Origin: a virus
Reading direction: 5' to 3' (one strand)
Virus record (IMG/VR): IMGVR_UViG_3300010300_004549
Location: 1-23,753 of that record
Length of the DNA stretch: 23,753 nucleotides
Program-made: the position numbers and the translations under genes
Part shown: one piece after another, positions 7,087 to 23,653 of the stretch
Position numbering within the stretch: the stretch's first letter is position 1
Layout: the number at the start of each line of letters is the position of its first letter
The notes under the pieces: generated by a model
What the model was told of the DNA's origin: nothing
What the model saw: only the letters and a program-made list of their open reading frames with translations
The model's database searches: none

Positions 7087-8017
7087 ACCTATAACATATG
7101 CTTATCTAGAAACTACTAATTATTGTAATCTTGATTGCAGTTTTTGTAACCGTAAAGATGTGATCGGCCCTCTAAAACATATGCCCTTAGATCAATGGGT
7201 AGAGTTATTAGAGAAAATTAAACACCACCCTATTAAAGAAGCTAAACTAATGGGCATGGGTGAGCCGTTCTTACATCCTAAATTTGATGAGATTTGTAGA
7301 TTGTGGAAAGAGTATTTTCCTGACTCTTTTCTTATTGTTGCTACTAACTGTCAATATAAATTTACTCAAAAAATTGAGCGAGCTTTTCAACATATTGATT
7401 TAGTATATTTTAGTATTGATGGTTATAAAGAGTCTTATGAAAGAGATCGCTCTCCTGCCAAGTGGGAGAAACTAATGACCTTCTTAGAAGGATTTAAAGA
7501 AGTTAATAGAGGACGGTCTAGAGTAACTTGTAATTATGTTGTCAATCCAGACAATATCCAGGACATTCAAACAATCTATGATGAGATTGTTGTACCGTAT
7601 GGATTAGAAGAACTTAGGCTAAACATTGCTCAATGCTGGGAAGAAGGCGGCTCTATGAATGATAGTTATAGTGAAGAGCAGCTTACCTACTTAAGAGACA
7701 ATTGGCAAGAAAATATTAAAGGTAAATCTGAATGGAACTTTGATAAGTGTTTCTGGCCTCAAGAAGGTCTCTATACTACTGTAGAAGGTAGAGTATTAAT
7801 GTGTGCTCTTAATACAGAAGCTAAAAGCTTTGGAAATATTTTTGAACAGGACTTAGATGATATAAGAAATAGTTTAGATTATCAGGCTGTAAAGCATGGA
7901 TGTGAAACTAATTGTCCTACTAAGCACTGTCAAACCTGTTCATATAAACAATTAGTGCCGATTTTGAATAAGCTAGGTGTACATAATGAAGTATCGGAAG
8001 CATCTCGACAAAGTTGA
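7070..8017 (+). CDS. Radical SAM protein with SPASM-like C-terminal cysteines
   Basis: A 315-residue protein. The radical SAM cluster motif C19-x3-C23-x2-C26 sits in NYCNLDCSFCNRKD; MGMGEPFLHP is the SAM-binding GGEP-type strand and FSIDGY the next core strand. The C-terminal region has further cysteines at about 227, 245, 278, 282, 287 and 290, spaced like a SPASM or twitch domain holding auxiliary Fe-S clusters. Proteins of this type modify peptides, sugars or cofactors by radical chemistry. The ATG at 7070 is preferred because it leaves only a 17-nt overlap with the oxygenase; an ATG at 7043 is possible. A peptide (RiPP) maturation role is usual for SPASM enzymes, but no precursor peptide is visible nearby, and the neighbours suggest a carbohydrate or aminated small molecule. 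Confidence 0.9.
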   Translation: MTPTLKPITYAYLETTNYCNLDCSFCNRKDVIGPLKHMPLDQWVELLEKIKHHPIKEAKLMGMGEPFLHPKFDEICRLWKEYFPDSFLIVATNCQYKFTQKIERAFQHIDLVYFSIDGYKESYERDRSPAKWEKLMTFLEGFKEVNRGRSRVTCNYVVNPDNIQDIQTIYDEIVVPYGLEELRLNIAQCWEEGGSMNDSYSEEQLTYLRDNWQENIKGKSEWNFDKCFWPQEGLYTTVEGRVLMCALNTEAKSFGNIFEQDLDDIRNSLDYQAVKHGCETNCPTKHCQTCSYKQLVPILNKLGVHNEVSEASRQS

Positions 8018-8993
8018 GAGAATAAGCGGAATTCATTTTAGTGATAAACTAATAAAGCTAAATTCTGCTGAGCGAGACATACCGCTTGACAATTTCATAT
8101 GGAGTAAATATCTAGAAAATCTTAAAGAGACGGATATTCGTTACTACCCAGATGTAGAGATTGCTCGTAATTTAATTGCTCGTTTTGAAGGAGTTAAACC
8201 CTCTCAAGTAACTCTAGGTGCAGGATCAGATCAAGTTATAAGAAATATTTTTGACTGTTTTGTAGAGCCAGGTCAAAATGTTATAACTACTGATCCTTGC
8301 TTTCCAATGTATAATGTTTATGGTAAAATATATAATGTCGATGTTATACAAGTACCATATTATAACAAACAAAAAGACGTTCAACGTATTATAAAAAGTA
8401 TAACATCAAGAACGTCTGTAATTATGATTAGCAATCCGAACAGTCCTATCGGTGATAGTTATAGCAGAGCTGAATTACAACATATAATTACAGCAGCTCA
8501 AAAAGTAGATGCTATTGTAGTAGTAGATGAAGCTTATATACAATTTGCAGAAGATACTTCTAGTTTATCAGATATTGCTTGGTCTTATTCTAATCTAATA
8601 ATAATAAAAACTTTCTCTAAAGCTGTCGGGGCAGCTGGAATACGATTTGGTTATGGAATATCAAATTGTAAAATAGCAGCTACGCTTGGTAAAGTTAAGA
8701 GTATGTATGAGATAACAGGACCTACTATAAAGTGGGTTCAAACTATTATAGATAATTACGTTATAGTAGATAGTTATGTTCAGAATGTTAAGGCTAATAG
8801 AAGAATTTTGAGTAATAAACTACGAGAAAAATATAGAGTAGTAGATAGTCAGTGTAATTGGATACATACTACTAAAACGGATTATCCGAGCGATATTGTA
8901 ACACGTAAATGTACATTACCTTGGAGTAAAAGCACCTGGGTTCGTTTATGTATACCTAGCAGTATAGAAACTTTGAATAGGATATTAGAATGA
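7986..8993 (+). CDS. PLP-dependent aminotransferase, class I/II (HisC-like)
   Basis: A 335-residue protein of fold-type I aminotransferases, similar in plan to histidinol-phosphate aminotransferase and CobD/CobC. TLGAGSDQVI near residue 80 is the phosphate-binding loop, NPNSPIG (150-156) and VVDEAYIQF (179-187) hold the Asn, Asp and Tyr that contact the pyridine ring, and KTFSKAVGAAGIRFGY contains the Schiff-base lysine K212 and the conserved arginine R220. The ATG at 7986 with AGGTG just upstream is a better start than the GTG at 7977. It is slightly shorter than HisC. Given the adjacent radical SAM and dioxygenase genes it probably adds or removes an amino group in the same small-molecule pathway rather than serving histidine synthesis, since no other his gene is present. 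The stop overlaps the next start by 4 nt. Confidence 0.9.
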   Translation: MKYRKHLDKVERISGIHFSDKLIKLNSAERDIPLDNFIWSKYLENLKETDIRYYPDVEIARNLIARFEGVKPSQVTLGAGSDQVIRNIFDCFVEPGQNVITTDPCFPMYNVYGKIYNVDVIQVPYYNKQKDVQRIIKSITSRTSVIMISNPNSPIGDSYSRAELQHIITAAQKVDAIVVVDEAYIQFAEDTSSLSDIAWSYSNLIIIKTFSKAVGAAGIRFGYGISNCKIAATLGKVKSMYEITGPTIKWVQTIIDNYVIVDSYVQNVKANRRILSNKLREKYRVVDSQCNWIHTTKTDYPSDIVTRKCTLPWSKSTWVRLCIPSSIETLNRILE

Positions 8994-9814
8994 AAGTAGC
9001 TCTTTGCTTAAGTGGCCAAATGCGTGCTTTACGACATTGTATAGATACAATACCGGTAGCTTTTCCTGATTGCGAAGTAGATATTTACGCTACTATTTGG
9101 GATTATGAATCTGAAGAAAATGTTAGAGTACTACTAGATAAAACAAATGTTCTTTCACTTTCTAGAGTAAATAATTCAGATCTTAGCAAGCATGCTGAGT
9201 TTGAAAGACAAGTTATTAAAAAAGGTTTTGCTAACATTTCACAAGTAAAAAACTGGGCTCCAATCCCAGTTTGGAATCTAACTAGAATAGAGTTAATGGC
9301 TCAACAAAGCTATAAAGCCATCACTAATGATTACGATTATATTTTTAGATCTAGATATGATACCCGCTACTTAACTAATTTAATTGATATTGTTTCACGT
9401 GTTGATTCTGCTTTATTGACGACAGAGGATATAGGAGGTTCAGCTCCTGAAGATATATGGAAAGGTTGTCGAATGATATTTGATGGGTTTGCTGGGGGAA
9501 CTCCAGAAACAATGGCCCAGTATTATCAGTTTGCGGACTGGCTTCCACAATATTTTAACGATCACAACGAAGTGCTTAAAGCAGAAAGAACTCTGGGCTG
9601 GTATCTCTGGAACAAAACAAACGTTAATTTAGCTTTTGTTAGAAATGTAATCGGTATTCAAATAAACGAGAACGAATGGTATAATAGAGATAATCCAATA
9701 GTAACTAACTCTCTTAAAACTAAGCAAAAAGGAACATTTGATTTTTATAAAGAAGATCTACAAAAGAACTGGCCAGATTTATATGAGGAAATAAAAAATG
9801 TCTGGGGCAGTTAA
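8990..9814 (+). CDS. Putative glycosyltransferase with RxRYD motif (copy 1)
   Basis: A 274-residue protein that begins with a Rossmann-like strand, VALCLSGQMRALRHC, and has the conserved core YDYIFRSRYDTRY (115-127), where the D of RYD is a likely metal or donor ligand. Further on, DGFAGGTPETM and FADWLPQYF are shared with the gene at 10489-11361 (DGFAFGSPYAM, FNKWLPFSIF). The two are clearly related. This pattern occurs in putative GT-A type glycosyltransferases of capsule and LPS loci. I infer that function from the motif and the setting; no exact family is assigned. The start overlaps the aminotransferase stop as ATGA, and the end overlaps the sulfotransferase start by 17 nt. Confidence 0.72.
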   Translation: MKVALCLSGQMRALRHCIDTIPVAFPDCEVDIYATIWDYESEENVRVLLDKTNVLSLSRVNNSDLSKHAEFERQVIKKGFANISQVKNWAPIPVWNLTRIELMAQQSYKAITNDYDYIFRSRYDTRYLTNLIDIVSRVDSALLTTEDIGGSAPEDIWKGCRMIFDGFAGGTPETMAQYYQFADWLPQYFNDHNEVLKAERTLGWYLWNKTNVNLAFVRNVIGIQINENEWYNRDNPIVTNSLKTKQKGTFDFYKEDLQKNWPDLYEEIKNVWGS

Positions 9815-10523
9815 ATTTACTACTAAATCCGCGCACCGATCGGGATCAAATTTTATTGCAAGATTAGTAATTGACAACTATTATGTAGAGCACTCTACAC
9901 CTGGGGGTACTACTAATTTTATAGTGACCTATCCTTTTGAATATTTAGAATCAAGTTATGATCATGTTGAGTGGAAACACGGTCTTTTTCATCCTCAAGG
10001 CCTTAACTGCTGGAGCGCTGTTTTAATAGCAAGAAATCCTATTAAATGGGTAAACGGTTGTATGGACTTTTGTGCTGACATGTGGAAATGGTGGGATGTT
10101 AATCCTCAGCGAGGAGAAGATGAAAAACTAATTTTTAAATATAAAGATAGAGATATTAGTATCCCAAGAATGATTACTAGGTGGAATAAATACTACAGAG
10201 AATATCTTGAACATACCACTTTAGATTTTATTTGGTATGAGGATTTGTTGTTTGATTATAGTAGAGATAGTTTTTTAAATTATTTTCAGACAAAATTTAA
10301 TTTAAAAAGAAAATATGACGAGATAAAAATACCAACCAACATACAGCATAGTGATAATTATACAAGTGTAAAAAGAGAGCAAGAAAAAGATTTAAACTAC
10401 CATCCTAACTTGACTGATATACAGCTTGACTATATAATAAACAGTGTAGATGATAATTTAATTAAACTAATGAGTGAGAGACGGTCTTATGAAAATCGCG
10501 GTGATATACAGTGGCGAGCCTAG
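9798..10523 (+). CDS. Sulfotransferase-like protein (copy 1)
   Basis: A 241-residue protein whose N terminus, AHRSGSNFIARL (12-23), matches the P-loop-like 5'-phosphosulfate-binding segment of PAPS-dependent sulfotransferases. LIARNPIKWVNG (76-87) matches their 3'-phosphate-binding strand and helix, where R and N of RNP contact PAPS. It is compact and aromatic-rich (WKWWD). It should transfer a sulfuryl group from PAPS to a hydroxyl or amino group of a carbohydrate or similar acceptor. The nearby APS kinase at 13785 could supply PAPS. No signal peptide or membrane anchor is seen, unlike eukaryotic Golgi enzymes, so it would act in the cytoplasm. The assignment is less secure than that of the gene at 11348-11992 because the 5' loop is divergent. 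Confidence 0.75.
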   Translation: MSGAVKFTTKSAHRSGSNFIARLVIDNYYVEHSTPGGTTNFIVTYPFEYLESSYDHVEWKHGLFHPQGLNCWSAVLIARNPIKWVNGCMDFCADMWKWWDVNPQRGEDEKLIFKYKDRDISIPRMITRWNKYYREYLEHTTLDFIWYEDLLFDYSRDSFLNYFQTKFNLKRKYDEIKIPTNIQHSDNYTSVKREQEKDLNYHPNLTDIQLDYIINSVDDNLIKLMSERRSYENRGDIQWRA

Positions 10524-11361
10524 AACATATAAGAAAACACTAGCCCAGCATGATAGTTTTTTTGAAGGTTGTAATTATGAAACCTATCATTCGACCTGGA
10601 CAAAAACATCTTGGGCTGAATTAGATTTAATTAAAAACTCTCCTAATTTCAAAAATGTTAATCAAGTTGATTATAACATACCTGACAGAGCAGATTTAGT
10701 TAGATTAGAAAAGCTTCTTTTAAATAATAAACCAAACCACCCTATTTTTATGCTCGGTAGAATACAGCATATGACATCTGCAGCTGTTAGAGATTGGGAC
10801 TGGAATAAATGGCAGGAATATGATTTCATTGTAAGAATGAGATATGATTTTACTTACTGGGGTGATAGTTTTAGCCCTGATCAGAAGTTTAAAAGTTTTA
10901 TACCTAATAATGCAAACGCTAATGATATTTTTATTACTAGAAAAATGGGAGGTAAATCTAGCCCTTTAAACGTATGGGATGGATTTGCTTTTGGAAGTCC
11001 TTATGCTATGAGTTTATACTTTGATTTTAATAAGTGGCTTCCTTTTAGTATTTTTGACTCACAAATACAAAGTTGGAAGTATCAGCCTGAGTACGTTTAT
11101 GGTACATATTTACGTAAAGTAGGATTAAACGTTAGAGAGACTCTAGTTCATCCCGCACATGTTTATCCAGATGGAAAAGATGTAGATTGGCACAGAACTC
11201 AAAGAACAGTACAATATTATAGAGATCTTGCTAATTTTCACCCTGAATGGTATTTACAAAAAAATGGTAAATTAATTGTTGAAAATGATAGTCCTACAGT
11301 AACTGATAATTTTATTATAGAAGAGCTGTCTAAAGAAGGGTTTGTTTGTGAAAATGTATAA
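10489..11361 (+). CDS. Putative glycosyltransferase with RxRYD motif (copy 2)
   Basis: A 290-residue relative of the gene at 8990-9814. It starts MKIAVIYSGEPRTYK and has YDFIVRMRYDFTY (111-123) as the central motif, then DGFAFGSPYAM and FNKWLPFSIF. The C terminus holds HPEWYL, similar in place to the WPDLYE of copy 1. The ATG at 10489 is favoured over a GTG at 10474 because the protein then begins at the conserved first strand; the overlap with the sulfotransferase gene is 35 nt. Copies 1 and 2 flank a sulfotransferase gene, so the three may act on one oligosaccharide. As for copy 1, the glycosyltransferase call rests on motif and setting. Confidence 0.72.
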   Translation: MKIAVIYSGEPRTYKKTLAQHDSFFEGCNYETYHSTWTKTSWAELDLIKNSPNFKNVNQVDYNIPDRADLVRLEKLLLNNKPNHPIFMLGRIQHMTSAAVRDWDWNKWQEYDFIVRMRYDFTYWGDSFSPDQKFKSFIPNNANANDIFITRKMGGKSSPLNVWDGFAFGSPYAMSLYFDFNKWLPFSIFDSQIQSWKYQPEYVYGTYLRKVGLNVRETLVHPAHVYPDGKDVDWHRTQRTVQYYRDLANFHPEWYLQKNGKLIVENDSPTVTDNFIIEELSKEGFVCENV

Positions 11362-11992
11362 CAGGCAGTCTCCATGTGTATATGATAATATTAAGGTGGT
11401 TTTTCATGGTATACCAAAAAATGCTTCCACGAGTATAAAGCACTTATTATATCAAGCAAACTGGAATAAAAAATTTGAAGGCCCGGGACAGTGGATTCAC
11501 AAAGGCAATAAAAAAGGAGGAAGCATTTATCCGCCTCTAGCCGAAATAAAAAGTGATAAATATTTCAACTACTCTCACGTAACTGTAGTGCGCAATCCTT
11601 ATGACCGTTTTATTAGTTTCTATACTGATCTTTGCTTAGGTTCAACAAATTTAAGAAATCAATCTCCTCCTTTTTTTGTAGATAATAATTTAAATATAAC
11701 AACCTATTCAGTTGATGAAGCTATTAACATGGTTTGTAGTTTTGATGAAGATGATCTAATTGATGAACATATAGCATCTCAATCATCTTTCATTCATACT
11801 GAAGATGTTAACATCATAAAAATGGAAGATATTAGCAATGACTGGAAGTTATATTGCAACAAAATAAATATTGAATTTAATGAGATTCCAGTATATAATA
11901 AATCATTAAGTAAAGTTAACTTATCAGAAATACAAAAAGAAAAATTGTTTAAAAGATATAAGAAAGATTTCGAAAGGTTCAAATATGAGTGA
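11348..11992 (+). CDS. Sulfotransferase, carbohydrate type (copy 2)
   Basis: A protein of about 214 residues with both PAPS-binding signatures of the Sulfotransfer_2 type. Numbered from the ATG at 11354, PKNASTS (21-27), following the strand VVFHGI, is the 5'-phosphosulfate loop, and VVRNPYDRFISFY (78-90) is the 3'-phosphate segment. QSSFI in the second half sits where family members have an aromatic or Gln acceptor-side motif. It is short for the family, consistent with a bare catalytic domain without a membrane anchor. The start could be GTG 11348, which has GAAGGG seven bases upstream, or ATG 11354. Known relatives sulfate chondroitin, heparan and other glycans, and the target here is probably a sugar built by neighbouring enzymes. 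Confidence 0.87.
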   Translation: MKMYNRQSPCVYDNIKVVFHGIPKNASTSIKHLLYQANWNKKFEGPGQWIHKGNKKGGSIYPPLAEIKSDKYFNYSHVTVVRNPYDRFISFYTDLCLGSTNLRNQSPPFFVDNNLNITTYSVDEAINMVCSFDEDDLIDEHIASQSSFIHTEDVNIIKMEDISNDWKLYCNKINIEFNEIPVYNKSLSKVNLSEIQKEKLFKRYKKDFERFKYE

Positions 11993-12722
11993 CAAAGTAA
12001 GAATTTTTATTGGAACATCAGCTAATGGAGAAGATGTTGAAGCAGAAATGACATATGAGTATAGTCTACGTAAAAATACAAAACATGATGTAGAGATTAC
12101 TTGGATGAAACAAACAAGAGATGAGTCTTCTTTATGGGGCGGGTGGGATACAAGAAATTGGTCTACCCCGTTTTCAGGTTTCAGATGGGCTATTCCTGAA
12201 GCTTGCGAGTTTAAAGGAAGAGCAATATATACAGATTGTGATATGATTAATTTTAGAGACATAAGCAATCTTTTGAATGTTGATATGAAAGGAAAGCCTG
12301 TAGCAGCTCGCAAAGGAAGTCGTTTTGGCGGGCATGAATTTTGTGTAATGGTTTTTGACTGTGAGCGTTTTGAACATTATTCAATGCCTGTTTCTCGAAT
12401 GAAAAAAATTCGGGAGTCTCACCATCGTATGATAAACAATTTTACCGGCAATGATGCTCTAGTACAAGAATTAGATCGTAGATGGAATTGTCTAGATGGA
12501 GAAGACTTTGTACCAGAAGATATCTGGCTTCTTCATTATACTAAAATGGCATCTCAGCCATGGCAACCTAAATGGTTTAAAGGAACTCCTGAAAAGCATG
12601 CGCGGCCAGAAATCGCTCAATTATGGTATGATATGAGAGACGAAGCTTCTACTGCTGGTTATGTATCAGGAAATTATATTCCTGATGATCCGTACGGTGA
12701 ATATAATATTATAGGAATGTAA
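11985..12722 (+). CDS. GT8-like glycosyltransferase
   Basis: A 245-residue protein with a GT-A plan. The first strand is RIFIGTS, and FRWAIPEACEFKGRAIYTDCDMI (66-88) ends in the D84-C-D86 metal motif typical of GT8 enzymes (family form: hYLDxDhh). HYTKMASQPWQPKW (184-197) resembles the C-terminal HxxGxxKPW motif, the histidine of which also binds the metal. It would transfer a sugar from a nucleotide sugar with retention of configuration, as in LPS core galactosyl or glucosyl transferases. It overlaps the sulfotransferase gene by 8 nt and the next gene by one base (TAATG). Confidence 0.83.
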   Translation: MSDKVRIFIGTSANGEDVEAEMTYEYSLRKNTKHDVEITWMKQTRDESSLWGGWDTRNWSTPFSGFRWAIPEACEFKGRAIYTDCDMINFRDISNLLNVDMKGKPVAARKGSRFGGHEFCVMVFDCERFEHYSMPVSRMKKIRESHHRMINNFTGNDALVQELDRRWNCLDGEDFVPEDIWLLHYTKMASQPWQPKWFKGTPEKHARPEIAQLWYDMRDEASTAGYVSGNYIPDDPYGEYNIIGM

Positions 12723-13624
12723 TGAAAGTAGGAATATTTACTGATAGTGCAAATCACCCTAGATTTGATAACATGCTTAGAAAGTTTGCTTCGGGTGTTC
12801 AAAAGACCGGTGATATTGCTTTCTGTACAGCAGGCAAATATAGTAACTGTGACGTAGCAGTTATATTTGGTTCTTGGAAAGATAGAGACACACTCTGGCA
12901 TAATGTAAAACGAGATGTAGTAGCTCGAGCTAAAAATTTTATTTGTATTGAAACTCCGTTAGTTGGTAGAGGTGAAGTTAAAGATGTAGGTGATGACAAT
13001 TGGTACAGAGTAGGAATAAACGGTTTTTTAGCAGATACTGGTAACTTTAATAATAAAAGAAAACCTATAGATAGATGGTTAAAGGTTAAAGAAGAGCTTG
13101 AAGTAGAGCTTTATGATTATGAGCAAGGAGATGATATTTTAGTAGCATTACAAGTACCAGGTGATGCTTCTCTAAGAGGTAAAGACATTAATTGGTGGAC
13201 TTATGAAATTTGTCATGAAATACGTAAATATTCTGATCGTAAAATAATTATAAGAACCCCTCAAGTGTTAAAAACTTTTGATTTAGATATTCTGTATAGC
13301 ATAAGAGATAGACTACCTAAAATTGATTATGAAATTGGCAGTAAAGAAAATCTTATATCATCTATAAAAAATAGCTGGGCTACAGTTACTTACTCGTCTG
13401 GATTAGGAATAGATAGCTACCTAGCTGGAGTTCCTTCTTTTACGATGGACAGAGGTAATTTTGCCTATAGTTTAGGCAACACTAATATTAAAAATATAGA
13501 AAAACCTGCTTTGCCAGATAGACAACAATGGTTAAATAATTTGTGTTACGCACAATGGAATGATGACGAAATGTCAAGGGGTATAGTTTGGAAACATCTC
13601 AAAGAAGCATTGTTAAAACTTTAA
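12722..13624 (+). CDS. Putative GT-B type transferase, family uncertain
   Basis: A 300-residue soluble protein. The N-terminal half starts with a Rossmann-like strand (KVGIFTDSAN) and ends with RVGINGFLADTGNF near residue 100. The C-terminal half starts DILVALQVPGDASLRG (138-152) and contains SSGLGIDSYLAGVPSFTMD (225-243). That pattern, a strand, a Ser-Ser-Gly turn, a helix and then AGxP, is how GT-B and capsule or Kdo-transferase-like enzymes hold the donor. I do not recognise a precise family and offer the transferase call with caution. Position between a GT8-like gene and the DUF2061/APS kinase pair supports a glycan role. The start shares one base with the previous stop, and the end overlaps the DUF2061 gene by 37 nt. 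Confidence 0.62.
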   Translation: MKVGIFTDSANHPRFDNMLRKFASGVQKTGDIAFCTAGKYSNCDVAVIFGSWKDRDTLWHNVKRDVVARAKNFICIETPLVGRGEVKDVGDDNWYRVGINGFLADTGNFNNKRKPIDRWLKVKEELEVELYDYEQGDDILVALQVPGDASLRGKDINWWTYEICHEIRKYSDRKIIIRTPQVLKTFDLDILYSIRDRLPKIDYEIGSKENLISSIKNSWATVTYSSGLGIDSYLAGVPSFTMDRGNFAYSLGNTNIKNIEKPALPDRQQWLNNLCYAQWNDDEMSRGIVWKHLKEALLKL

Positions 13625-13788
13625 CGTGGAGATTTTTAGCAACATTAACTACTTTTATAATAAGCTGGATTATAACGGGTAGTATAGCAATAGGGTTGGG
13701 AATTGCTTCTATAGAATTTTGGGCCAAAATTGCACTGTATTATCTACATGAACGTATTTGGAATAATATTAACTGGGGTACGCGATGA
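13588..13788 (+). CDS. DUF2061 small membrane protein
   Basis: A 66-residue protein that fits DUF2061 over its full length. It opens SIVKTLTWRFLATLTTF, continues with a hydrophobic segment (about 18-40, IISWIITGSIAIGLGIASIEF) and closes with KIALYYLHERIWNNINWG, the family's terminal signature. One or two short membrane helices are expected. The start is TTG at 13588 with AAGGGG six bases upstream. Its stop overlaps the APS kinase start as ATGA. The function of DUF2061 is unknown; tight coupling to the APS kinase here suggests a link to PAPS use or sulfate metabolism at the membrane, which is inference only. Confidence 0.86.
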   Translation: METSQRSIVKTLTWRFLATLTTFIISWIITGSIAIGLGIASIEFWAKIALYYLHERIWNNINWGTR

Positions 13789-14204
13789 AAATATTAATTA
13801 TGGGACTTCCTGGATCAGGAAAAACTCATCTAGCAGTTAGACTACAGCAACATTTAAATTGTGCTTGGTATAATGCCGACGCTATACGCAAAGCTGCTAA
13901 TGATTGGGATTTTTCAGATGCTGGAAGACGAAGACAGGCAGAACGAATGGATACCTTTGCTACATTCGAAGGGACCCGTGGAAGAACAGTGATATGCGAT
14001 TTCGTATGTCCAACAAAGCAAACAAGAACAGCTTTTGGACCGGATATTACTATTTGGATGAATACAATTAAAGAAGGCCGATTTGAAGATACTAATAAGT
14101 TATTTGAATCTCCAACGAAAGTTGATCACGTAATTGATTCTTTTATGACAGATGAAGAAATTGAAGGATTTGCCCTTCTTCTTAAGGAGGAATATAATGT
14201 TTAA
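13785..14204 (+). CDS. cysC: Adenylylsulfate (APS) kinase-like protein
   Basis: A 139-residue P-loop kinase. GLPGSGKT (7-14) is the Walker A loop. NADAIRKAANDWDFSDAGRRRQAER (30-54) matches the APS-binding segment of CysC, which reads DxxR followed by FSDADRRENIRR. CDFVCPTKQTR (71-81) stands where CysC has the FISPY-R segment, and the later part is shorter than in typical CysC (about 170 to 200 residues). The enzyme would phosphorylate APS at the 3' position with ATP to form PAPS, the donor for the two sulfotransferases upstream. No reductase gene (cysH) is present, which favours sulfation over assimilation. The compact lid region leaves some doubt about the exact substrate; another nucleoside or small-molecule kinase activity is possible. 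Confidence 0.8.
   Translation: MKILIMGLPGSGKTHLAVRLQQHLNCAWYNADAIRKAANDWDFSDAGRRRQAERMDTFATFEGTRGRTVICDFVCPTKQTRTAFGPDITIWMNTIKEGRFEDTNKLFESPTKVDHVIDSFMTDEEIEGFALLLKEEYNV
14184..14190 (+). promoter_or_regulatory. Strong Shine-Dalgarno sequence
   Basis: AAGGAGG lies six bases before the ATG at 14197. It is the strongest ribosome-binding site in this block, and it settles the start of the nucleotidyltransferase at 14197 rather than further upstream inside the APS kinase gene. Confidence 0.85.
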
Positions 14205-14607
14205 TCAATTTAAACCTACTACACAAATGTTAGGTCGTTGGCAGCCTTGGCATGACGGTCATACAGCACTATTTAAAAAAGCTTTACTGGAAACAGGGCA
14301 AGTTTGTATTCAGATTAGAACTGTGCCTCAAGACGAAGATGCAAGTGCTGGAAGAACCGCGGTACAGGACGATAATCCATTTACTGCAGATGAAGTTATA
14401 ATTAATATTAAAGATTCTCTAGAAAAAGAAGGTTTCACATACGGAGAAGAATATATTATAATGAGAGTACCTAATATAGTAGACATTAGTTATGGAAGGG
14501 GAGTTGGCTATACTTTTACCGAACATGACTTAGGAGAAGATATTCATAATATATCAGCCACTAAAATTAGAGCTCAGCTGAGAGAACAAGGTAAACTAAA
14601 CCGATGA
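14197..14607 (+). CDS. HxGH nucleotidyltransferase beside APS kinase
   Basis: A 136-residue nucleotidyltransferase. GRWQPWHDGH (13-22) holds the HxGH motif (H19, H22) in a form like the GRFQPxHxGH of NadM-type adenylyltransferases, and ISATKIRAQLRE (119-130) is the C-terminal phosphate-binding motif. In between, VPNIVDISYGRGVGY is a conserved-looking stretch. The enzyme probably transfers AMP or CMP to a phosphate or other oxyanion. Its position right after the APS kinase raises the possibility that it makes APS, because ATP sulfurylase shares the fold, but it lacks the usual sulfurylase sequence context. NMN adenylyltransferase or cytidylyltransferase are the other options. It overlaps the APS kinase by 8 nt and the next gene by 4 nt. 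Confidence 0.82.
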   Translation: MFNQFKPTTQMLGRWQPWHDGHTALFKKALLETGQVCIQIRTVPQDEDASAGRTAVQDDNPFTADEVIINIKDSLEKEGFTYGEEYIIMRVPNIVDISYGRGVGYTFTEHDLGEDIHNISATKIRAQLREQGKLNR

Positions 14608-15389
14608 AATTTGAAGCTGTAACATCGATGAATGAATCCTATTTTCAAAATATAGGATTTAAAATGCTTGATAGTTATTTAATTAATTGGCCAGATACAG
14701 TAAAGTTAAATTTATACCACGAAGACAATTATAGTTACATAACTAATAAAAAAGTTGAGCTAAAAAACTTATATGAATGTGAGCCAACTTGCAAAGAGTT
14801 TGTAGAAAGACATCAGGATAGACCTGATCAGCAAAATAAGCTTGAGCTCCACAAAGGAGCAGTTAGATTTTCTTACAAGACATTTAGTATTATAAATGCT
14901 GCTACAACATCAACAGCTGATTATTTGATATGGATAGATGCCGATACTTTTACTCATTCACAAATAACAGAAGAATTTTTAAATGAACTAGTTGACCCTA
15001 ATAAATATTTGACTTATCTTGGTAGAGAAAATAATTATAGTGAATGCGGCTTTGTAATTTATAATTTAAATCATCCAGTTAATCAAGTTTTTATGAGCGC
15101 TTGGCGTCATTTATATGAACAAGATGAAGTTTTTAAGTTAGATCAGTGGCATGATTCTTACGTTTTTGATCAAATTAGATTAACGTATGAGCAAGAAGGA
15201 ATCATAGAAAATATAAATCTTTCACCATGGGGGAAAGATTATGATCATGTATTTATTAACAGTGTCTTAGGTGATTATATGGATCATATGAAAGGACCGC
15301 GTAAAGACGAAGGAAAATCACGTGAATCTGACTTATTTACTAAGAGAAAGAGTGATTATTGGTACCCACAAAGCAGATTTAATAGCTAA
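14604..15389 (+). CDS. DxD-containing glycosyltransferase-like protein
   Basis: A 261-residue protein with a likely GT-A fold. TADYLIWIDADTFTH (104-118) has the hydrophobic strand followed by D112-A-D114, the usual nucleotide-sugar metal motif. YLGRENNYSECGFVIYNLNHP downstream looks like the acceptor-side strand and loop, with the small-residue turn common in GT8/GT24-type enzymes. The C terminus, GDYMDHMKGPRKDEGKS, contains a histidine and basic residues that may bind the diphosphate. It is the last gene before a promoter and so closes the accessory block. The start overlaps the nucleotidyltransferase stop as ATGA. The exact family is not assigned. Confidence 0.75.
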   Translation: MKFEAVTSMNESYFQNIGFKMLDSYLINWPDTVKLNLYHEDNYSYITNKKVELKNLYECEPTCKEFVERHQDRPDQQNKLELHKGAVRFSYKTFSIINAATTSTADYLIWIDADTFTHSQITEEFLNELVDPNKYLTYLGRENNYSECGFVIYNLNHPVNQVFMSAWRHLYEQDEVFKLDQWHDSYVFDQIRLTYEQEGIIENINLSPWGKDYDHVFINSVLGDYMDHMKGPRKDEGKSRESDLFTKRKSDYWYPQSRFNS

Positions 15390-15393
15390 CTCG

Positions 15394-15407
15394 TTGATTT
15401 TCTTGAA
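15394..15407 (+). repeat. Upstream promoter motif, copy 1
   Basis: TTGATTTTCTTGAA, 24 bp before the -35 element at 15418 (start to start). It matches 13 of 14 bases of the copy at 23669. Positions 15397-15413 also form a dyad, ATTTTCTT-G-AAGAAAAT. It may be a binding site for an activator or a UP-like element; this is inference. Confidence 0.5.
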
Positions 15408-15417
15408 GAAAATAAAG

Positions 15418-15446
15418 TTGCCATTCTCTATAAATGTTCATATAAT
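15418..15446 (+). promoter_or_regulatory. Sigma70-type promoter before the SprT-like gene
   Basis: TTGCCA (15418-15423), a 17-base spacer and a perfect TATAAT (15441-15446), in the 81-nt gap between the last gene of the accessory block and the metallopeptidase gene. The -10 context GTTCATATAATA is shared with the promoter at 23703. GAGGAGA follows before the ATG at 15471, giving a leader of roughly 20 nt. It probably starts transcription of the replication-side operon by host RNA polymerase. Confidence 0.75.
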
Positions 15447-15470
15447 AATGGATGTACTGAGGAGAATATA

Positions 15471-15890
15471 ATGAACCAGATTGAGATCATCGGTGGTAAA
15501 GCTGATCGTAAAGAGCTTGCCGAAAAAGTAGTTAGATGGTATCTTAAAAGGACAATGCCAAGAGTAAGAACCTTTGATATAACAATCAAACTTACTAACT
15601 GTCTTAAAGACGGAGCATACGGTTACTGTTTTTCGCATGGAAAAAGAGAATTTGAATTAGAAATAGATAAAAATTTACGGTTGTTTGATTTTGTATCTAC
15701 TCTATGTCATGAGTTAACTCATCTCAAACAATATGCTAAAGGCGAAATGAAGCAGATAGATTGCTATAAAACTCAATGGAAAAAAGTAGTCTATACAGAC
15801 AGAGTTGATTATCATGATCAACCGTGGGAAAAAGAAGCGTTTAAAATGGAAAGAAATTTAGCGTTAGAATGTTTTGAAGAGGAATTATAA
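15471..15890 (+). CDS. SprT-like zinc metallopeptidase
   Basis: A 139-residue protein with a zincin signature: VSTLCHELTHLKQYAKGEMK (75-94) contains HExxH as H80-E81-L-T-H84. The third zinc ligand would lie downstream, with the helix PWEKEAFKMERNL, whose glutamates are candidates. Size and layout fit the phage SprT-like group. In cells SprT/Spartan-type proteases cleave proteins crosslinked to DNA; a role in phage DNA replication or in processing a phage protein is plausible. It has its own promoter and a good ribosome-binding site (GAGGAGA before 15471) and is the first gene of the downstream operon. Confidence 0.83.
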   Translation: MNQIEIIGGKADRKELAEKVVRWYLKRTMPRVRTFDITIKLTNCLKDGAYGYCFSHGKREFELEIDKNLRLFDFVSTLCHELTHLKQYAKGEMKQIDCYKTQWKKVVYTDRVDYHDQPWEKEAFKMERNLALECFEEEL

Positions 15891-15896
15891 ACAATT

Positions 15897-16937
15897 ATGG
15901 CGACAGAATTAAAATTAGTAGAAAATGAACCTCAATCAGATGATGTAGGTTTTAGTCTTGACGGAAGTAACGATTCAGTAGAGATTGATGAGCTCTCAGT
16001 AAATGCCAAGGGCGGTACTGAAATGATGAAATATGGACTTTACGAGCGGCTTTCTGAAGACATAAGAGATAAAGTGCAAATAATCTGTTCGAGAGTGCGT
16101 AAAGTAGACGAAGATAGACCATCTATATTATGGCTTCATGATTTATATGCAGACCCAGAATCTGTACACTTAAGAGATGAAGAGTCTAGAAAACGGTTTG
16201 CTAAACTAGTTTTTGTTTCCCATTGGCAATGGACTACATATCAAATGACAATGGGTATTAAACCTGAAGAAGCAATTATTCTTCGAAATGCTATTGAGCC
16301 TATTGAGGCCCATGATAAGCCAGACGATGGAACTATTAATTTAATTTACCATACTACCCCTCATCGCGGCTTAGAGCTGCTTGCTCCTGTAGTAGAGTTC
16401 TTAACTGCTGAGCAAGGATATGATAATATTCATTTAGATGTTTATTCGAGTTTTGAAGCATATGGTTGGCCGCAGAGAGATGAACCTTATCAACAATTGT
16501 TTGAAAAGATCAAAAATCATCCTAATATGACCTATCACGGTTATCAACCTAACGAGGTCGTACGCGAAGCGCTTAAAAAAGCACATATATTTGCTTACCC
16601 GTCAATATGGGAAGAGACTTCATGTATTGCAGCTATTGAAGCAATGAGTGCTGGCTGCGCAATTATAACTCCATTCCACGGAGCTTTGCCTGAAACTACA
16701 GGCAACTTCGCGTTTGCTTACCAGCCGTCATCAGATCATCAAGACCATGCTAATATTTTTGCAAACGTACTACACAATGTATTACAACTTTATATTAATG
16801 ATCCAGAGTCAATGAAACAGCGATTATCATTCCAGAAAACTTGGACGGATAATTTTTATAATTGGAACCAACGTGCAAAAGAATGGGAAGGGCTTATACA
16901 TGGCATCCTCGCAGCAGAAGATCAGAAAAAAGCGTAA
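15897..16937 (+). CDS. GT4-like glycosyltransferase (GT-B fold)
   Basis: A 346-residue GT-B enzyme. The N-terminal glycine loop is AKGGTEMMKYGL (37-48), KLVFVSHWQW (103-112) and ILRNAIE (128-134) are the usual connecting strands, and YHTTPHRGLELL (151-162) is the donor-phosphate segment (family form: RxxxxKGxxxL, here HRGLELL). The retaining signature is AYPSIWEETSCIAAIEAMSAGCAIITP (233-259), where E240 and E248 fit the EX7E motif. The first 35 residues are acidic and probably disordered. It would transfer a sugar from a nucleotide sugar. Glycosyltransferases sit in the replication region of several T4-like phages, where they may modify host LPS or phage DNA; which applies here is unknown. 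Confidence 0.88.
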   Translation: MATELKLVENEPQSDDVGFSLDGSNDSVEIDELSVNAKGGTEMMKYGLYERLSEDIRDKVQIICSRVRKVDEDRPSILWLHDLYADPESVHLRDEESRKRFAKLVFVSHWQWTTYQMTMGIKPEEAIILRNAIEPIEAHDKPDDGTINLIYHTTPHRGLELLAPVVEFLTAEQGYDNIHLDVYSSFEAYGWPQRDEPYQQLFEKIKNHPNMTYHGYQPNEVVREALKKAHIFAYPSIWEETSCIAAIEAMSAGCAIITPFHGALPETTGNFAFAYQPSSDHQDHANIFANVLHNVLQLYINDPESMKQRLSFQKTWTDNFYNWNQRAKEWEGLIHGILAAEDQKKA

Positions 16938-20203: not shown

Positions 20204-21004
20204 ATGTCCAGAATTGCAGTCCATAGTATCGAAAATTTTTATGATGATGAGAATGAAAAATATATTACCCGGGCCCAGAGAAAGCGTTTGAGAAAGCAAA
20301 AATTACAACAAAAAAAATTGGTTAATATATTAGACATAGAACCACGAACGGAAAATCAAACCAAAGCTTTTGAAGCTTTTGATGATGGACACAATTTACT
20401 ACTACACGGAGTAGCTGGAACAGGAAAGACTTTTGTATCATTATATCTTGCGTTAGATGATATATTTAACGGTGAAGATATGAAGCGATCAGTAACTATA
20501 GTACGTTCAGTTGTTCCGACTCGAGAAATAGGTTTTCTTCCAGGAAAAGAAAAAGATAAAACCGCAGTTTACGAAGCGCCTTACAAAAGTATTATAACAG
20601 AATTAACTGGTAGAGGAGACGGGTACGAAATCTTAAAGCAAAGAGGTATTATAGATTTTACTACCACGTCTTTTCTTAGAGGTACTACAATTGATAATTC
20701 AATCATAATTGTTGATGAATGCCAGAACATGACATTCCATGAGCTAGATAGTATTATTACTAGAGCAGGAATAAACACATCGATAATTTTTAGCGGTGAT
20801 TTCAGACAAACTGATTTAAATAAACCTTGGGATCAATCTGGTATAAGTGAATTTATGAAAATCTTGAAAAGGATTAGTAGTTTTAAAGATATTGAATTTG
20901 ATTATCAAGATATAGTTCGTTCCGGCTTGGTCCGTGACTATATTATTGCCAAAGATGACTTTTATGAACAAAACTTTTCAACACCAAGCTACGCCTCAGC
21001 TTGA
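20204..21004 (+). CDS. phoH: PhoH-like ATPase
   Basis: A 266-residue P-loop ATPase of the PhoH family, widespread in marine phages. Walker A is GVAGTGKT (69-76), SFLRGTTIDNSIIIVDECQNMT (156-177) holds the Walker B acidic pair D171-E172, and FSGDFRQTD is the sensor strand typical of helicase-like PhoH domains. The first 45 residues are basic (RAQRKRLRKQKLQQKK) and may bind RNA. PhoH belongs to superfamily 1-like helicases; phosphate regulation applies to the E. coli gene, whereas its phage role is uncertain. DECQN differs slightly from the usual DEAQN. The ribosome-binding site is GAGGTG, and the 3' end overlaps the nuclease gene by about 41 nt. Confidence 0.95.
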   Translation: MSRIAVHSIENFYDDENEKYITRAQRKRLRKQKLQQKKLVNILDIEPRTENQTKAFEAFDDGHNLLLHGVAGTGKTFVSLYLALDDIFNGEDMKRSVTIVRSVVPTREIGFLPGKEKDKTAVYEAPYKSIITELTGRGDGYEILKQRGIIDFTTTSFLRGTTIDNSIIIVDECQNMTFHELDSIITRAGINTSIIFSGDFRQTDLNKPWDQSGISEFMKILKRISSFKDIEFDYQDIVRSGLVRDYIIAKDDFYEQNFSTPSYASA

Positions 21005-21638
21005 ATCTCTTAGTAGAGAAACAATAGAAGGCAAAAGATATTATGTCACCCCTGATGGTAAAAAATATCCCTCAGTAACTACTGTTGCAAGCTTTTCAAC
21101 AGCTAAGCAAATTAAACAATGGAGAGAGCGCGTAGGCCAGGAAAAGGCTACGCGTATCTCTACCCAAGCATCTGTAAGAGGTACTGCTGTACATAAATTG
21201 TGTGAAGACTATATTAATAATGTAGAAGATTATACAAAAGGTCATATGCCTGCTAATATTGAATCATTTAATACATTAAAACCTGTACTAAATGAAAAAA
21301 TAGATAATGTAGTAATGCAAGAAGCACCTTTATATTCTCATTATTTAAAAGTAGGAGGCCAAGTTGATTGCATAGCAGAATGGGACGGAAAACTCTCTAT
21401 CATAGATTTTAAAACGTCTAGAAAAATAAAAAAGAAAGAGTGGATTGGAAACTACTTTATGCAATGCAGTGCTTACGCTGTGATGTATGAAGAGTTAACC
21501 AAAGTTCCTATTCAACAGATTGTGATAGTCATTGCTGTAGATAATGAATCACCGCAAATATTTATAGAAAAAAGAGATGATCATATCTGGAAGTTTGTAG
21601 ACATAAGAAAAGAGTATGAAAGGGTGTACGGTGTTTAA
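20964..21638 (+). CDS. PD-(D/E)XK exonuclease, RecB/Cas4-like
   Basis: A 224-residue nuclease. Motifs in order are RGTAVHKLCEDY with H77, GGQVDCIAEWDG with D135, IIDFKTSRK with D148 and K150, and QCSAYAVMYEE with Q167 and Y171, the layout (GxxxH, GxxD, DxK, QxxxY) of RecB-family exonucleases. The N-terminal part has TPDGKKYPSVTTV, found in phage members of this group. It should digest or process DNA ends, in host DNA breakdown, recombination or replication-linked repair. ATG 20964 was chosen over ATG 20955; both lie inside the phoH reading frame. The stop overlaps the next gene by 8 nt. Confidence 0.88.
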   Translation: MNKTFQHQATPQLESLSRETIEGKRYYVTPDGKKYPSVTTVASFSTAKQIKQWRERVGQEKATRISTQASVRGTAVHKLCEDYINNVEDYTKGHMPANIESFNTLKPVLNEKIDNVVMQEAPLYSHYLKVGGQVDCIAEWDGKLSIIDFKTSRKIKKKEWIGNYFMQCSAYAVMYEELTKVPIQQIVIVIAVDNESPQIFIEKRDDHIWKFVDIRKEYERVYGV

Positions 21639-22020
21639 AAAAGTTTTTGTTAATGGAACTTTTGACGTATTGCATCTAGGTCATTTAAGAATGTTAAACT
21701 ATGCTAAATCACAAGGTGACACTCTTTTAGTTGCAATTGACACGGATGAGAGAGTAAAATTAAAGAAAGGTAATGATAGACCTTTTAATAATTATGAAGA
21801 GCGTAAAGAGTTCTTATTAGGTTTAAAAGCTGTTGATCATGTTTTAAACTTTGAGACTGACGACGATCTTAAAGATATTATTAAAAGATATAGTCCTGAC
21901 TTAATGATAGTTGGAAGTGATTGGAAAAATGGAGACGTCCTTGGAAGTGAGTACGCCAAAAGACTTGAGTTCTTTGAACGAATTGAGCCGTACAGTACCA
22001 CACGTATTATTAATAGGTGA
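21631..22020 (+). CDS. HldE C-domain-like nucleotidyltransferase
   Basis: A 129-residue enzyme closely resembling the adenylyltransferase half of HldE/RfaE. VNGTFDVLHLGHLRML (7-22) contains H15-L-G-H18, and AIDTDERVKLKKGNDRPFN, then PDLMIVGSDWKNGDVLGSEYA and the C-terminal RIEPYSTTRIINR follow in the family order. In bacteria this reaction turns D-glycero-D-manno-heptose 1-phosphate into an ADP or GDP form for LPS core or S-layer sugars. GTG 21631 with AAAGGG six bases upstream is chosen over ATG 21616. It overlaps the nuclease gene by 8 nt. Glycerol-3-phosphate cytidylyltransferase is the nearest alternative, but the DRP and VGSDW blocks favour the HldE type. Confidence 0.88.
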   Translation: MFKKVFVNGTFDVLHLGHLRMLNYAKSQGDTLLVAIDTDERVKLKKGNDRPFNNYEERKEFLLGLKAVDHVLNFETDDDLKDIIKRYSPDLMIVGSDWKNGDVLGSEYAKRLEFFERIEPYSTTRIINR

Positions 22021-22750
22021 TAGCTGTATAGATGAATATATCTACGGTACTGTAGACAGAATAAGCCCAGAAGCACCAGTCCCGGTGTTAAAATTTTCTA
22101 GTAAATCTACTAAGCATGGTATGGCATCTAACGTACTGGCCAATCTACAATCGTTTAATATACTTACAACATTTAAAACTAATACAGAAAAATCTATAAA
22201 AACTAGATACGTTGATGAGCGGTCAGAACAGCAAATAGTTCGTGTAGACAATGATATACTGACGGCTGAGTGTGATACTTCTAGTCTGTGTTTTGATGGA
22301 ATAGATTGTGTAGTTATAAGTGATTATGATAAAGGTTTTGTAACGGACTTAACTATACAGTACGTGATCGATAATTTTTCAGGTCCTATTTTCATCGACA
22401 CTAAAAAGAAAAATATGGGTCAGTTTAGTAAAGAAAATGTATATTTTAAAATAAACGAAAAAGAATGGGCAGAATGTGAAAGCTCGGCTTCTAATACTAT
22501 TGTAACTTTAGGAAAAGCAGGAGCTTTGTTTAAAGATAGACTATATAAAGCACCAACAGTTGATACTTTTGATGTAACAGGTGCAGGTGACACTTTTCTT
22601 TCAGCTTTAACATGGGCATATTTAACCTATGCTACCATAGACAAAGCTATAGCGATGGCAAATAGAGCAGCTGCTATTTCAGTTCAGCATAGAGGTGTTT
22701 ATACTTTAAAAGATGAAGATATTAATGAAATTAAAGAATGGAGTTATTGA
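21929..22750 (+). CDS. HldE N-domain-like PfkB sugar kinase
   Basis: A PfkB/ribokinase-fold kinase of about 273 residues. VLLIGDSCIDEYIYGTVDRISPEAPVPVLKF matches the first strands of the heptose-7-phosphate kinase domain of HldE, including the SPEAPVPV stretch, and DVTGAGDTFLSAL near the C terminus is the PfkB signature with the catalytic aspartate of GAGD. HGMASNVLANL replaces the usual GGAANVAxNL and is a degenerate form. It is shorter than HldE's kinase half (about 315 residues). Together with the adjacent adenylyltransferase it forms a split HldE. The start is unsure: ATG 21929 overlaps the previous gene by 92 nt, while TTG 21974 or 21983 would give shorter overlap. Confidence 0.86.
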   Translation: METSLEVSTPKDLSSLNELSRTVPHVLLIGDSCIDEYIYGTVDRISPEAPVPVLKFSSKSTKHGMASNVLANLQSFNILTTFKTNTEKSIKTRYVDERSEQQIVRVDNDILTAECDTSSLCFDGIDCVVISDYDKGFVTDLTIQYVIDNFSGPIFIDTKKKNMGQFSKENVYFKINEKEWAECESSASNTIVTLGKAGALFKDRLYKAPTVDTFDVTGAGDTFLSALTWAYLTYATIDKAIAMANRAAAISVQHRGVYTLKDEDINEIKEWSY

Positions 22751-23109
22751 TGAGATTAGATGGATTTGTTGAAAAGGGATGGGGACATGAGCTTATATGG
22801 GCTACTAATGATCTCTACTGTGGCAAGTTTTTAAAATTTAACAAAGATGCAATGTTTAGTATGCATTTTCATCGAGAAAAAGATGAAACTTGGTACGTTT
22901 TAGACGGAGAGTTTGAAGTTGAGTATATAGATACTAAAGACGCATCTCGTTTAACTAAAAAATTAACTAAAGGGGATGTATGGAGAAACAAGCCTTTAGA
23001 ACCTCATAGGGTAATTTGTTTAGAAGAAGGAACTATTATTGAGGTATCAACTGCAGATTCTGTTGAAGACAATTATAGAGTCTTTAAGGGAGATTCTCAG
23101 AAGACTTAG
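22750..23109 (+). CDS. Cupin-domain protein, sugar isomerase or binding type
   Basis: A 119-residue single cupin. EKGWGHELIWATN near residue 8 is like the opening of type II mannose-6-phosphate isomerase cupins, MHFHREKDETWYVLDGEFEV (38-57) is cupin motif 1 with metal ligands H39, H41 and E45, and LEPHRVICLEEG contains H86 of motif 2. It probably isomerises or epimerises a phosphorylated sugar, or binds it, for the kinase and nucleotidyltransferase just upstream. The ATG shares a base with the kinase stop (TGATG) and has GGAG seven bases upstream. The 3' end overlaps the convergent minus-strand gene by 26 nt, with no visible terminator between. Confidence 0.85.
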   Translation: MRLDGFVEKGWGHELIWATNDLYCGKFLKFNKDAMFSMHFHREKDETWYVLDGEFEVEYIDTKDASRLTKKLTKGDVWRNKPLEPHRVICLEEGTIIEVSTADSVEDNYRVFKGDSQKT

Positions 23110-23653
23110 CTTTAATGTAGCTAATATAGTTATGAAGACGACCTCTACGCCACCCGGCCGGAATCTCTCCATAACATCTTTTTTCTTCTTTAGTGAAAGC
23201 ATTACAAATCCAAAACCAACCACCTTTATTGTTATTGTTTAGAGATTTTTTAATTCTAGTTTCTTCAGAATCAACTACCCCTTCCCGGTGATGTTTGTGA
23301 TATTTGTATCTTTCTTTTAATTTTTTAGAGACTGTTTCTTTAACATGATCTGGACGAGGTTTACCATATTGGCTGTTGCCTTGTCCAGATGCAGCTTCAG
23401 ACATTTTACGACGTGTTTCTTCTGATCTACGAATAGGCCCGCTTCGTTCAATACGTTTAGTAATCCAATGATTAGGTTTAACTTCAGATCTATTATCCAG
23501 CTCACACTTGTACTGTTTTTTGTACATTTCCGCACGAATCAGCAGTTTCTCAAGCACAGAATTTGACTCGAGAAGCTCTAAATCTCGTGAATTTTGCATG
23601 GATTCTTGGAGAATCAGTAGATTTTCACTGGAATTATAGTATAAAAAATGCAT
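23084..23653 (-). CDS. NUMOD3 protein, probable homing-endonuclease relative
   Basis: A 189-residue protein, the only minus-strand gene. SEETRRKMSEAASGQGNSQYGK (77-98) is a NUMOD3 DNA-binding motif, and the end has GWFWICNAF (145-153) with IPAGWRRGR (164-172), the WIxN...IPxGWxxGR element found at the C terminus of many phage HNH and GIY-YIG homing endonucleases. No HNH or GIY-YIG catalytic motif is seen in the N-terminal 70 residues, which are only moderately charged. It could be a catalytic-domain-deleted remnant, a stand-alone DNA-binding protein, or a nuclease with a domain I do not recognise. Its orientation against the surrounding operons is typical of a free-standing mobile gene. ATG 23653 is assumed; the ribosome-binding site is weak. 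Confidence 0.8.
   Translation of the reverse strand: MHFLYYNSSENLLILQESMQNSRDLELLESNSVLEKLLIRAEMYKKQYKCELDNRSEVKPNHWITKRIERSGPIRRSEETRRKMSEAASGQGNSQYGKPRPDHVKETVSKKLKERYKYHKHHREGVVDSEETRIKKSLNNNNKGGWFWICNAFTKEEKRCYGEIPAGWRRGRLHNYISYIKAKSSENLP

Follow-up and report, generated by a model that had tools for sequence, protein, structure and literature searches.

The 23,753-nucleotide IMG/VR virus record IMGVR_UViG_3300010300_004549 (the whole stretch analysed here, hereafter the window) is a fragment of a T4-like phage genome, and gene absences in the window hold for that fragment alone. Its PhoH and RNase H proteins show affinity to those of Methylophilales phages Melnitz and, together with the T4-type gene set, place the source among the T4-like marine myophages. 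Three overlapping plus-strand genes at 21631-23109 encode an HldC-type adenylyltransferase, an HldA-type PfkB kinase and a 119-residue cupin (Table 1). A preliminary description, made from the letters of the sequence, had read this triad as a split HldE accompanied by a cupin, and matches to three PHROG families confirmed the genes. The adenylyltransferase start (GTG 21631, with an alternative in-frame ATG at 21616) overlaps the end of the exonuclease gene, whose stop is TAA 21636-21638. The open frame of the kinase extends from 21911, with its first ATG at 21929, its conserved core from ~22000 and its stop (TGA) at 22748-22750; it shares up to 92 nucleotides with the adenylyltransferase gene. 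The cupin ATG at 22750 in turn overlaps the kinase stop (TGATG). We propose that the triad feeds synthesis of adenosine diphosphate (ADP)-heptose with the cupin as a stand-in for GmhA, a reading to which we assign a probability of roughly 0.7. Underrated in the preliminary description, the cupin is the most informative gene of the three and probably does GmhA's job.

All elements of the PfkB core are present in the kinase: the GAGD base, the NxxE motif and the GD..D.Y..G..R.SPEAPVPV signature. Its HGMASN sequence had been taken for a degenerate GGAAN motif and, together with the short length, for a sign of a substrate other than heptose 7-phosphate. GMAxN proved to be the form of the family, invariant in 14 of the 14 phage kinases first aligned and nearly so in a wider set of 68, and we therefore rejected the motif as a mark of a new substrate. 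GAGD, NxxE, SDYxKG, KTR and R-x-D are kept in both alignments, and a length ~60 residues below that of HldA is shared across the phage family. A changed kinase substrate is a possibility that none of the observations favours. Two observations that would have spoken against a heptose kinase, lost active-site residues and a closer match to non-heptose ribokinases, were not made: the HldA structure 4e84 leads the PDB profile search (next best, 1.2e-10), and the top seven Foldseek matches to the AlphaFold model (predicted local distance difference test, pLDDT, 96) are all HldA. In a kinase tree the phage proteins form one clade inside the HldA/HldE sample; a length filter dropped most of the intended ribokinase outgroup from that tree, and we therefore read the affinity for HldA over ribokinases from the PDB profile and the fold. 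Sequence, fold and tree favour an HldA-like kinase, for which heptose 7-phosphate is a plausible rather than a proven substrate. The adenylyltransferase carries the HLGH motif, and rfaE_dom_II is its best NCBIfam family, ahead of glycerol-3-phosphate cytidylyltransferase (1e-22); the best NCBIfam family of the kinase is rfaE_dom_I.

Recurrence of the three genes in marine phages

The triad is a recurrent module of T4-like marine phages. A search of IMG/VR with the single kinase sequence found no relatives; an alignment-based search yielded at least 583 confirmed kinase relatives and at least 580 confirmed cupin relatives. Among kinase-seeded loci with full flanks, 34 of 36 contained the cupin and 35 of 36 the adenylyltransferase, and the kinase was present in 24 of 28 cupin-seeded loci with full flanks. 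Across ~150 loci, most have the three genes together. Each of 12 kinase-bearing loci from named or single-cell marine phages (P-SSM2, S-CAM1, S-CAM3, S-SSM7, S-T4 and P-TIM68 among them) also encodes the adenylyltransferase and the cupin, as well as the small protein GC306. The split, adenylyltransferase-first layout that the preliminary description singled out is real but not unusual: this order is the usual one in the phage family, and separate HldA and HldC, and thus a 'split HldE', are already known in bacteria, the best PDB match of the kinase being itself a stand-alone HldA.

Cyanophage-type loci have GC306 beside the cupin in 52 of 55 cases and an SDR gene in 53 of 55; window-type loci usually lack GC306, and carry an SDR gene in 69 of 95 cases and a GmhB-like gene in 13 of 95. 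For the phage SDRs that were tested, the top-scoring family is ADP-heptose 6-epimerase (210 and 223 bits against a cut-off of 274.6); for the phage GmhB-like genes that were tested, it is heptose 1,7-bisphosphate 7-phosphatase (135 and 134 bits against a cut-off of 178). With an HldA-like and HldC-like pair at the locus and such genes in related ones, the product is most likely a nucleotide-activated heptose, as had been suggested. Fusions of the cupin with the adenylyltransferase (L024, L027 and L049) and, in both orders, with the kinase agree with a common pathway. In the cyanophages Bellamy and SynMITS9220M01, a member of this cupin family is instead found next to a GHMP kinase and a nucleoside triphosphate (NTP) transferase; the GHMP kinase, tested in SynMITS9220M01, matches HddA best (286.7 bits). 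HldA and HddA share a substrate, D-glycero-D-manno-heptose 7-phosphate. Found beside both, the cupin therefore fits best at the step that makes heptose 7-phosphate.

Two existing annotations needed correction. GC306 (phrog_1238; in P-SSM2, PSSM2_311, L002:12731-13075) is labelled 'phosphoheptose isomerase', and we considered it as the missing GmhA. It has four HAD motifs (DxDGT/TAR/K/DDK) and no SIS domain, its best PDB match is a capsule-biosynthesis protein (1.5e-22) and it also matches the EcbF-BcbF capsule-phosphatase family; we rejected it as GmhA on these grounds. By its motifs GC306 is a small HAD phosphatase, and its label is likely a propagated misannotation. The module cupin (GC307, phrog_7851; PSSM2_312, L002:13056-13412) is annotated 'nucleotidyltransferase' or 'cysteine dioxygenase'.

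SynMITS9220M01, in which a PfkB kinase is absent from the stretch examined, has a SIS protein whose best match is GmhA (47 bits) in a separate cassette. That second heptose-type cassette (L015:13556-16324) comprises a GHMP kinase, the GmhA-like SIS protein, a HAD-adenylyltransferase fusion and an HldD-like SDR. GC306 is fused to an HldC-like domain in this phage, and at L015:4265-5422 an NTP transferase is fused to an RpiB/LacAB-type sugar isomerase domain.

The cupin and the GmhA step

The triad would supply the first, second and fourth enzymes of the ADP-heptose route. The cupin would convert sedoheptulose 7-phosphate to D-glycero-D-manno-heptose 7-phosphate, a metal-dependent aldose-ketose isomerization that is otherwise the work of the unrelated GmhA; the HldA-type kinase would then phosphorylate C1 to give the 1,7-bisphosphate. 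A HAD phosphatase, represented in relatives by GC306 or GmhB, would strip the 7-phosphate; in the window phage this enzyme could be the HAD half of the open reading frame (ORF) at 5054-6094, or could be encoded outside the fragment or by the host. From heptose 1-phosphate and adenosine triphosphate, the HldC-type adenylyltransferase would make ADP-heptose, usable by an HldD-like epimerase (present in most relatives, and here outside the fragment) and by glycosyltransferases. The end use would probably be a host-surface or virion glycan. The sequences themselves establish gene identity and order, the conserved active sites, the lack of SIS_2 in module-bearing records and the exchange of cupin and GmhA beside HldA in cells; we infer the substrate and reaction of the cupin, the nucleotide and the use of the sugar.

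Searches for SIS_2, the domain of GmhA, found it in 0 of 50 module-bearing virus records and in 0 of nine complete cyanophage genomes with the module; the Escherichia coli control was positive. No SIS domain turned up among the scanned window ORFs, and the cupin has a different fold, so what we predict is a protein that works like GmhA, not one that is GmhA.

In Patescibacteria, the cupin and GmhA nearly exclude each other beside HldA, and the cupin takes the GmhA slot. HldE-type kinases were present in 15 of 192 genomes of a first sample. Four of these had a module-type cupin, adjacent to the kinase in G065 and G077 and fused to it in G233 and G255; their SIS_2 matches, if any, were GlmS-sized, and none had a GmhA-sized SIS protein. 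The other 11 had a SIS_2 protein, adjacent or fused to the kinase in eight, and no module-type cupin (Fisher p = 7e-4, to be read as a guide since the genomes are not independent). When the sample was enlarged to 380 genomes with 19 kinase genomes, one cupin-bearing genome had a SIS protein and five had none, and 12 cupin-free genomes had one and a single genome had none (p = 0.003). Among the added genomes, G285 fits the rule (cupin, no SIS) and G284 has a SIS protein. In G396 (L254), an atypical HldA-like kinase adjoins transaldolase-, RpiB- and GT9-like genes, with neither SIS_2 nor a module-type cupin; this is perhaps yet another choice of isomerase.

The kinase tree nests the cupin-partnered kinase of G077 in a well-supported group of SIS-partnered kinases, which implies that closely related kinases have had their partner exchanged; on the tree, the partner label has to change at least four times. 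A Parcubacterium cluster (L192) runs from a GT9 heptosyltransferase through the cupin, HldA and an adenylyltransferase-GmhB fusion to HldD. HldA, GmhB and HldD score above their curated cut-offs and the adenylyltransferase half below, and SIS_2 has no match in the genome. As annotated by these matches, every other ADP-heptose step is present and the cupin would stand in for GmhA. In the order of Marinoscillum, one of 291 genomes, Marinoscillum pacificum, has the module cupin (L252/L178; window-type, 56% identical, near radical SAM and methyltransferase genes). An HldE-type kinase is present in this species and a GmhA-sized SIS match is not, whereas 17 of the 18 relatives sampled do have a SIS match of about that size. 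Since the cupin is not beside the kinase, we count Marinoscillum as weak support for a second cellular lineage with the exclusion.

The residues of the cupin are consistent with isomerase chemistry. Its profile matches in the PDB include D-lyxose isomerase 2y0o (2.3e-5) and L-ribose isomerase 5avp (6.1e-5), and the G077 cupin reaches 26.2 bits against Pfam Lyx_isomer (cut-off 20.8). In the D-lyxose isomerase TsLI, metal and sugar are held by K62, H75, H77, K86, E88, H143 and E156 (PMC8378251). These align with K26, H39, H41, K44, E46, H86 and E98 of the window cupin, which hardly vary across 183 cupins from phages and cells and are the predicted metal- and sugar-binding residues; all four metal ligands (H39, H41, E46 and H86) are kept. 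TsLI D163 plausibly corresponds to D107, in a gapped region of the alignment.

Weighing the alternatives and the setting of the locus

Several observations weigh against the ADP-heptose reading. The kinase (136.4 bits; equivalog cut-off 345) and the adenylyltransferase (105.1 bits; curated cut-off 181.5) fall short of their NCBIfam families, for which reason we file them as HldA-like and HldC-like rather than as HldA and HldC proper. No clear match to GmhB or HldD was found in the 23.7-kb fragment, and 74 of 95 window-type loci have no recognized bisphosphatase within 8 kb. Some cupins have no kinase nearby (L112, L130, L152 and the Marinoscillum cupin), and G368 has both a cupin-kinase fusion and a 246-residue SIS protein. 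Window-type cupins sit on a long branch of the cupin tree. A Foldseek search with the cupin model (pLDDT 94) returned generic cupins, phosphomannose isomerase and D-lyxose isomerase among them, and did not single out sugar isomerases, with quercetinases, KdgF and oxalate decarboxylase equal or better; the search being undiscriminating, we dropped it as a guide to substrate. Finally, the D-lyxose-isomerase residues except H39 recur in ManC-associated cupins, so these residues back isomerase chemistry and not a substrate.

ManC-linked cupins also underlie the best-placed alternative, which we consider unlikely: the cupin would be a mannose-6-phosphate (or pentose) isomerase of the ordinary kind, and the kinase and adenylyltransferase would turn the phosphate of a hexose or pentose into a non-heptose ADP- or cytidine diphosphate-sugar. 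The nearest sister cupins in Patescibacteria adjoin ManC, the setting of a mannose-6-phosphate isomerase, and the shortened kinase with GMAxN for GGAAN and the additional match of the adenylyltransferase to glycerol-3-phosphate cytidylyltransferase would suit such a role. The ManC-linked cupins nevertheless form a separate clade (support 100/100), with Gln at the first metal position (QxH, not HxH) and without R110. Module cupins, moreover, accompany HldA, HddA, GmhB and heptose-6-epimerase genes, none of them a hexose-pathway gene, and cellular HldA with a canonical GGAxN partners the same cupin group.

It is less probable still that the cupin acts downstream as a nucleotide-sugar epimerase or isomerase (an RmlC-type 3,5-epimerase or WbuC-type enzyme) and that the host provides GmhA. 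Cupins of sugar clusters often act in this way, WbuC is a weak match and a phage could draw on host GmhA. Left unexplained, however, are the cupin's occupation of the GmhA slot in cells whose genomes usually lack GmhA, and its presence beside HldA as well as HddA, whose only steps in common are those around heptose 7-phosphate; RmlC also uses a metal-free His-Asp pair, whereas the module cupin keeps its four metal ligands. Least likely of all, the three genes could be remnants, or relatives that moonlight, and play no part in heptose metabolism in the window phage. A fragment without clear GmhB and HldD would suit this reading, as would the position of the locus among replication genes, at a distance from the glycan cluster (3.3-16.9 kb). 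Intact frames with overlapping starts and stops, the retention of all catalytic residues and the co-occurrence of the same genes in most loci speak against it.

More generally, and a little more guardedly than for the window, we think it probable that PHROG 7851 cupins and their cellular kin are sedoheptulose-7-phosphate isomerases, a non-homologous replacement for GmhA that feeds HldA/HddA-type kinases in many marine phages and some Patescibacteria. These phages would thus have a self-standing heptose-activation module even for cyanobacterial hosts. Cyanobacterial lipopolysaccharide (LPS) is reported to be without heptose (PMC4390846), so a cyanophage heptose product would be foreign to the host core. 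If correct, this proposal would explain what is done by a large family of phage proteins that at present go under the names 'cysteine dioxygenase' or 'nucleotidyltransferase', supply the missing first ADP-heptose step in organisms seemingly without GmhA and add a second fold for a key step in the synthesis of an LPS-core sugar. It would also raise the question of whether phages use heptose to remodel the surface of the host or their own virions. The phage genes named 'phosphoheptose isomerase' emerge as HAD phosphatases.

The replication-region setting given in the preliminary description is right: RNase H, DUF6433, PhoH and a PD-(D/E)XK exonuclease precede the triad. Elsewhere in the window, a second adenylyltransferase-like ORF (32% identical to the first over 113 residues) sits between nrdB and a SegE-type GIY-YIG gene, and could serve either the same pathway or another. 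For the 7-phosphatase step, a single candidate was detected in the window, and a weak one: the HAD half of the NTP-transferase fusion, which matches the module HAD profile at E 2e-4. The fusion lies in a large glycan/modification cluster (3284-16937) inserted in the T4-like genome, together with GT61, a RIO/Bud32-like kinase, a radical SAM/SPASM protein, a HisC-like aminotransferase, a sulfotransferase, GT8 and GT1. In two other loci (L130 and L152, near 8000), a window-type cupin adjoins a QueE-like radical SAM gene, with no kinase or adenylyltransferase nearby.

Table 1 Features of the window discussed in the text.
Feature	Position	Strand	Evidence
HldC-type adenylyltransferase (HLGH nucleotidyltransferase, 129 aa)	21631-22020	+	Pfam CTP_transf_like 9e-18; phrog_7878 2.7e-44; rfaE_dom_II 2.8e-30
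HldA-type PfkB kinase, short form, GMAxN motif	21929-22750	+	phrog_8133 1.3e-89; rfaE_dom_I 1.1e-39; PDB 4e84 7.8e-28
Single-domain cupin, 119 aa, predicted sedoheptulose-7-phosphate isomerase	22750-23109	+	phrog_7851 1.5e-38; PDB profile matches; residue table; gene context
PhoH	20204-21004	+	Pfam and PHROG; directly upstream context
PD-(D/E)XK exonuclease	20934-21638	+	Pfam and PHROG; directly upstream of adenylyltransferase
NUMOD3-containing ORF, probably homing endonuclease	23084-23653	-	Directly downstream; slightly overlaps cupin gene
Second adenylyltransferase-like ORF (TTG start)	2274-2699	+	CTP_transf_like 4.5e-12; phrog_7878 1.1e-32; BLASTP 6e-20
NTP-transferase and HAD phosphatase fusion	5054-6094	+	NTP_transf_3 3.6e-7; Acid_phosphat_B 9e-9; phrog_1238 2.3e-9 to residues 228-317

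Comparison with known systems

Compared with the bacterial HldE or HldA and HldC pathway, the window kinase and adenylyltransferase are homologous to the halves of HldE, and relatives of the locus also have GmhB-like and HldD-like genes. The window genes differ in being split with the adenylyltransferase first, in the short kinase with GMAxN and in the presence of a cupin, with GmhA absent from module-bearing records. Cyanophage 'LPS' clusters of the P-SSM2 type (GC304-GC308) contain the same adenylyltransferase, kinase and cupin families plus an SDR; the window triad instead lies beside phoH and the exonuclease, has no adjoining GC306 and belongs to a distinct cupin clade. In such cyanophage clusters, Iyer and colleagues noted sugar isomerases of the cupin fold along with PfkB kinases and HIGH-type nucleotidyltransferases (PMC7824862); the word heptose does not occur in that text, and the cupin is not tied to heptose. 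Heptose or rfaE genes were noted in the SynMITS9220M01 announcement (PMC7378029) and in a pelagimyophage survey (PMC7029224). In the literature searched, we found no link of any cupin to heptose or sedoheptulose isomerization and no proposal of a cupin in place of GmhA.

A close enzymatic parallel is D-lyxose/D-mannose isomerase (2Y0O, 7NZO). It has the cupin fold, and invariant residues of the module cupin line up with its four metal ligands, its two lysines and its second-shell Glu; its C2 (manno/lyxo) stereochemistry is that expected of the module-cupin product. The module cupin is ~50-60 residues shorter, has low identity to it, carries an additional invariant N-terminal K-x-W-G-x-E motif and R110, and is predicted to act on a seven-carbon sugar phosphate. 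Among Patescibacteria matches, the nearest sister family is the stand-alone type II mannose-6-phosphate isomerase cupin beside ManC, which is set apart by the first metal position, R110 and its partner, ManC rather than HldA. Its predicted reaction is analogous (ketose 6-phosphate to manno-aldose 6-phosphate): conversion of fructose 6-phosphate to mannose 6-phosphate beside ManC would parallel that of sedoheptulose 7-phosphate to manno-heptose 7-phosphate beside HldA. Set against these systems, what is likely new in the window is the cupin, a predicted non-homologous counterpart of GmhA.

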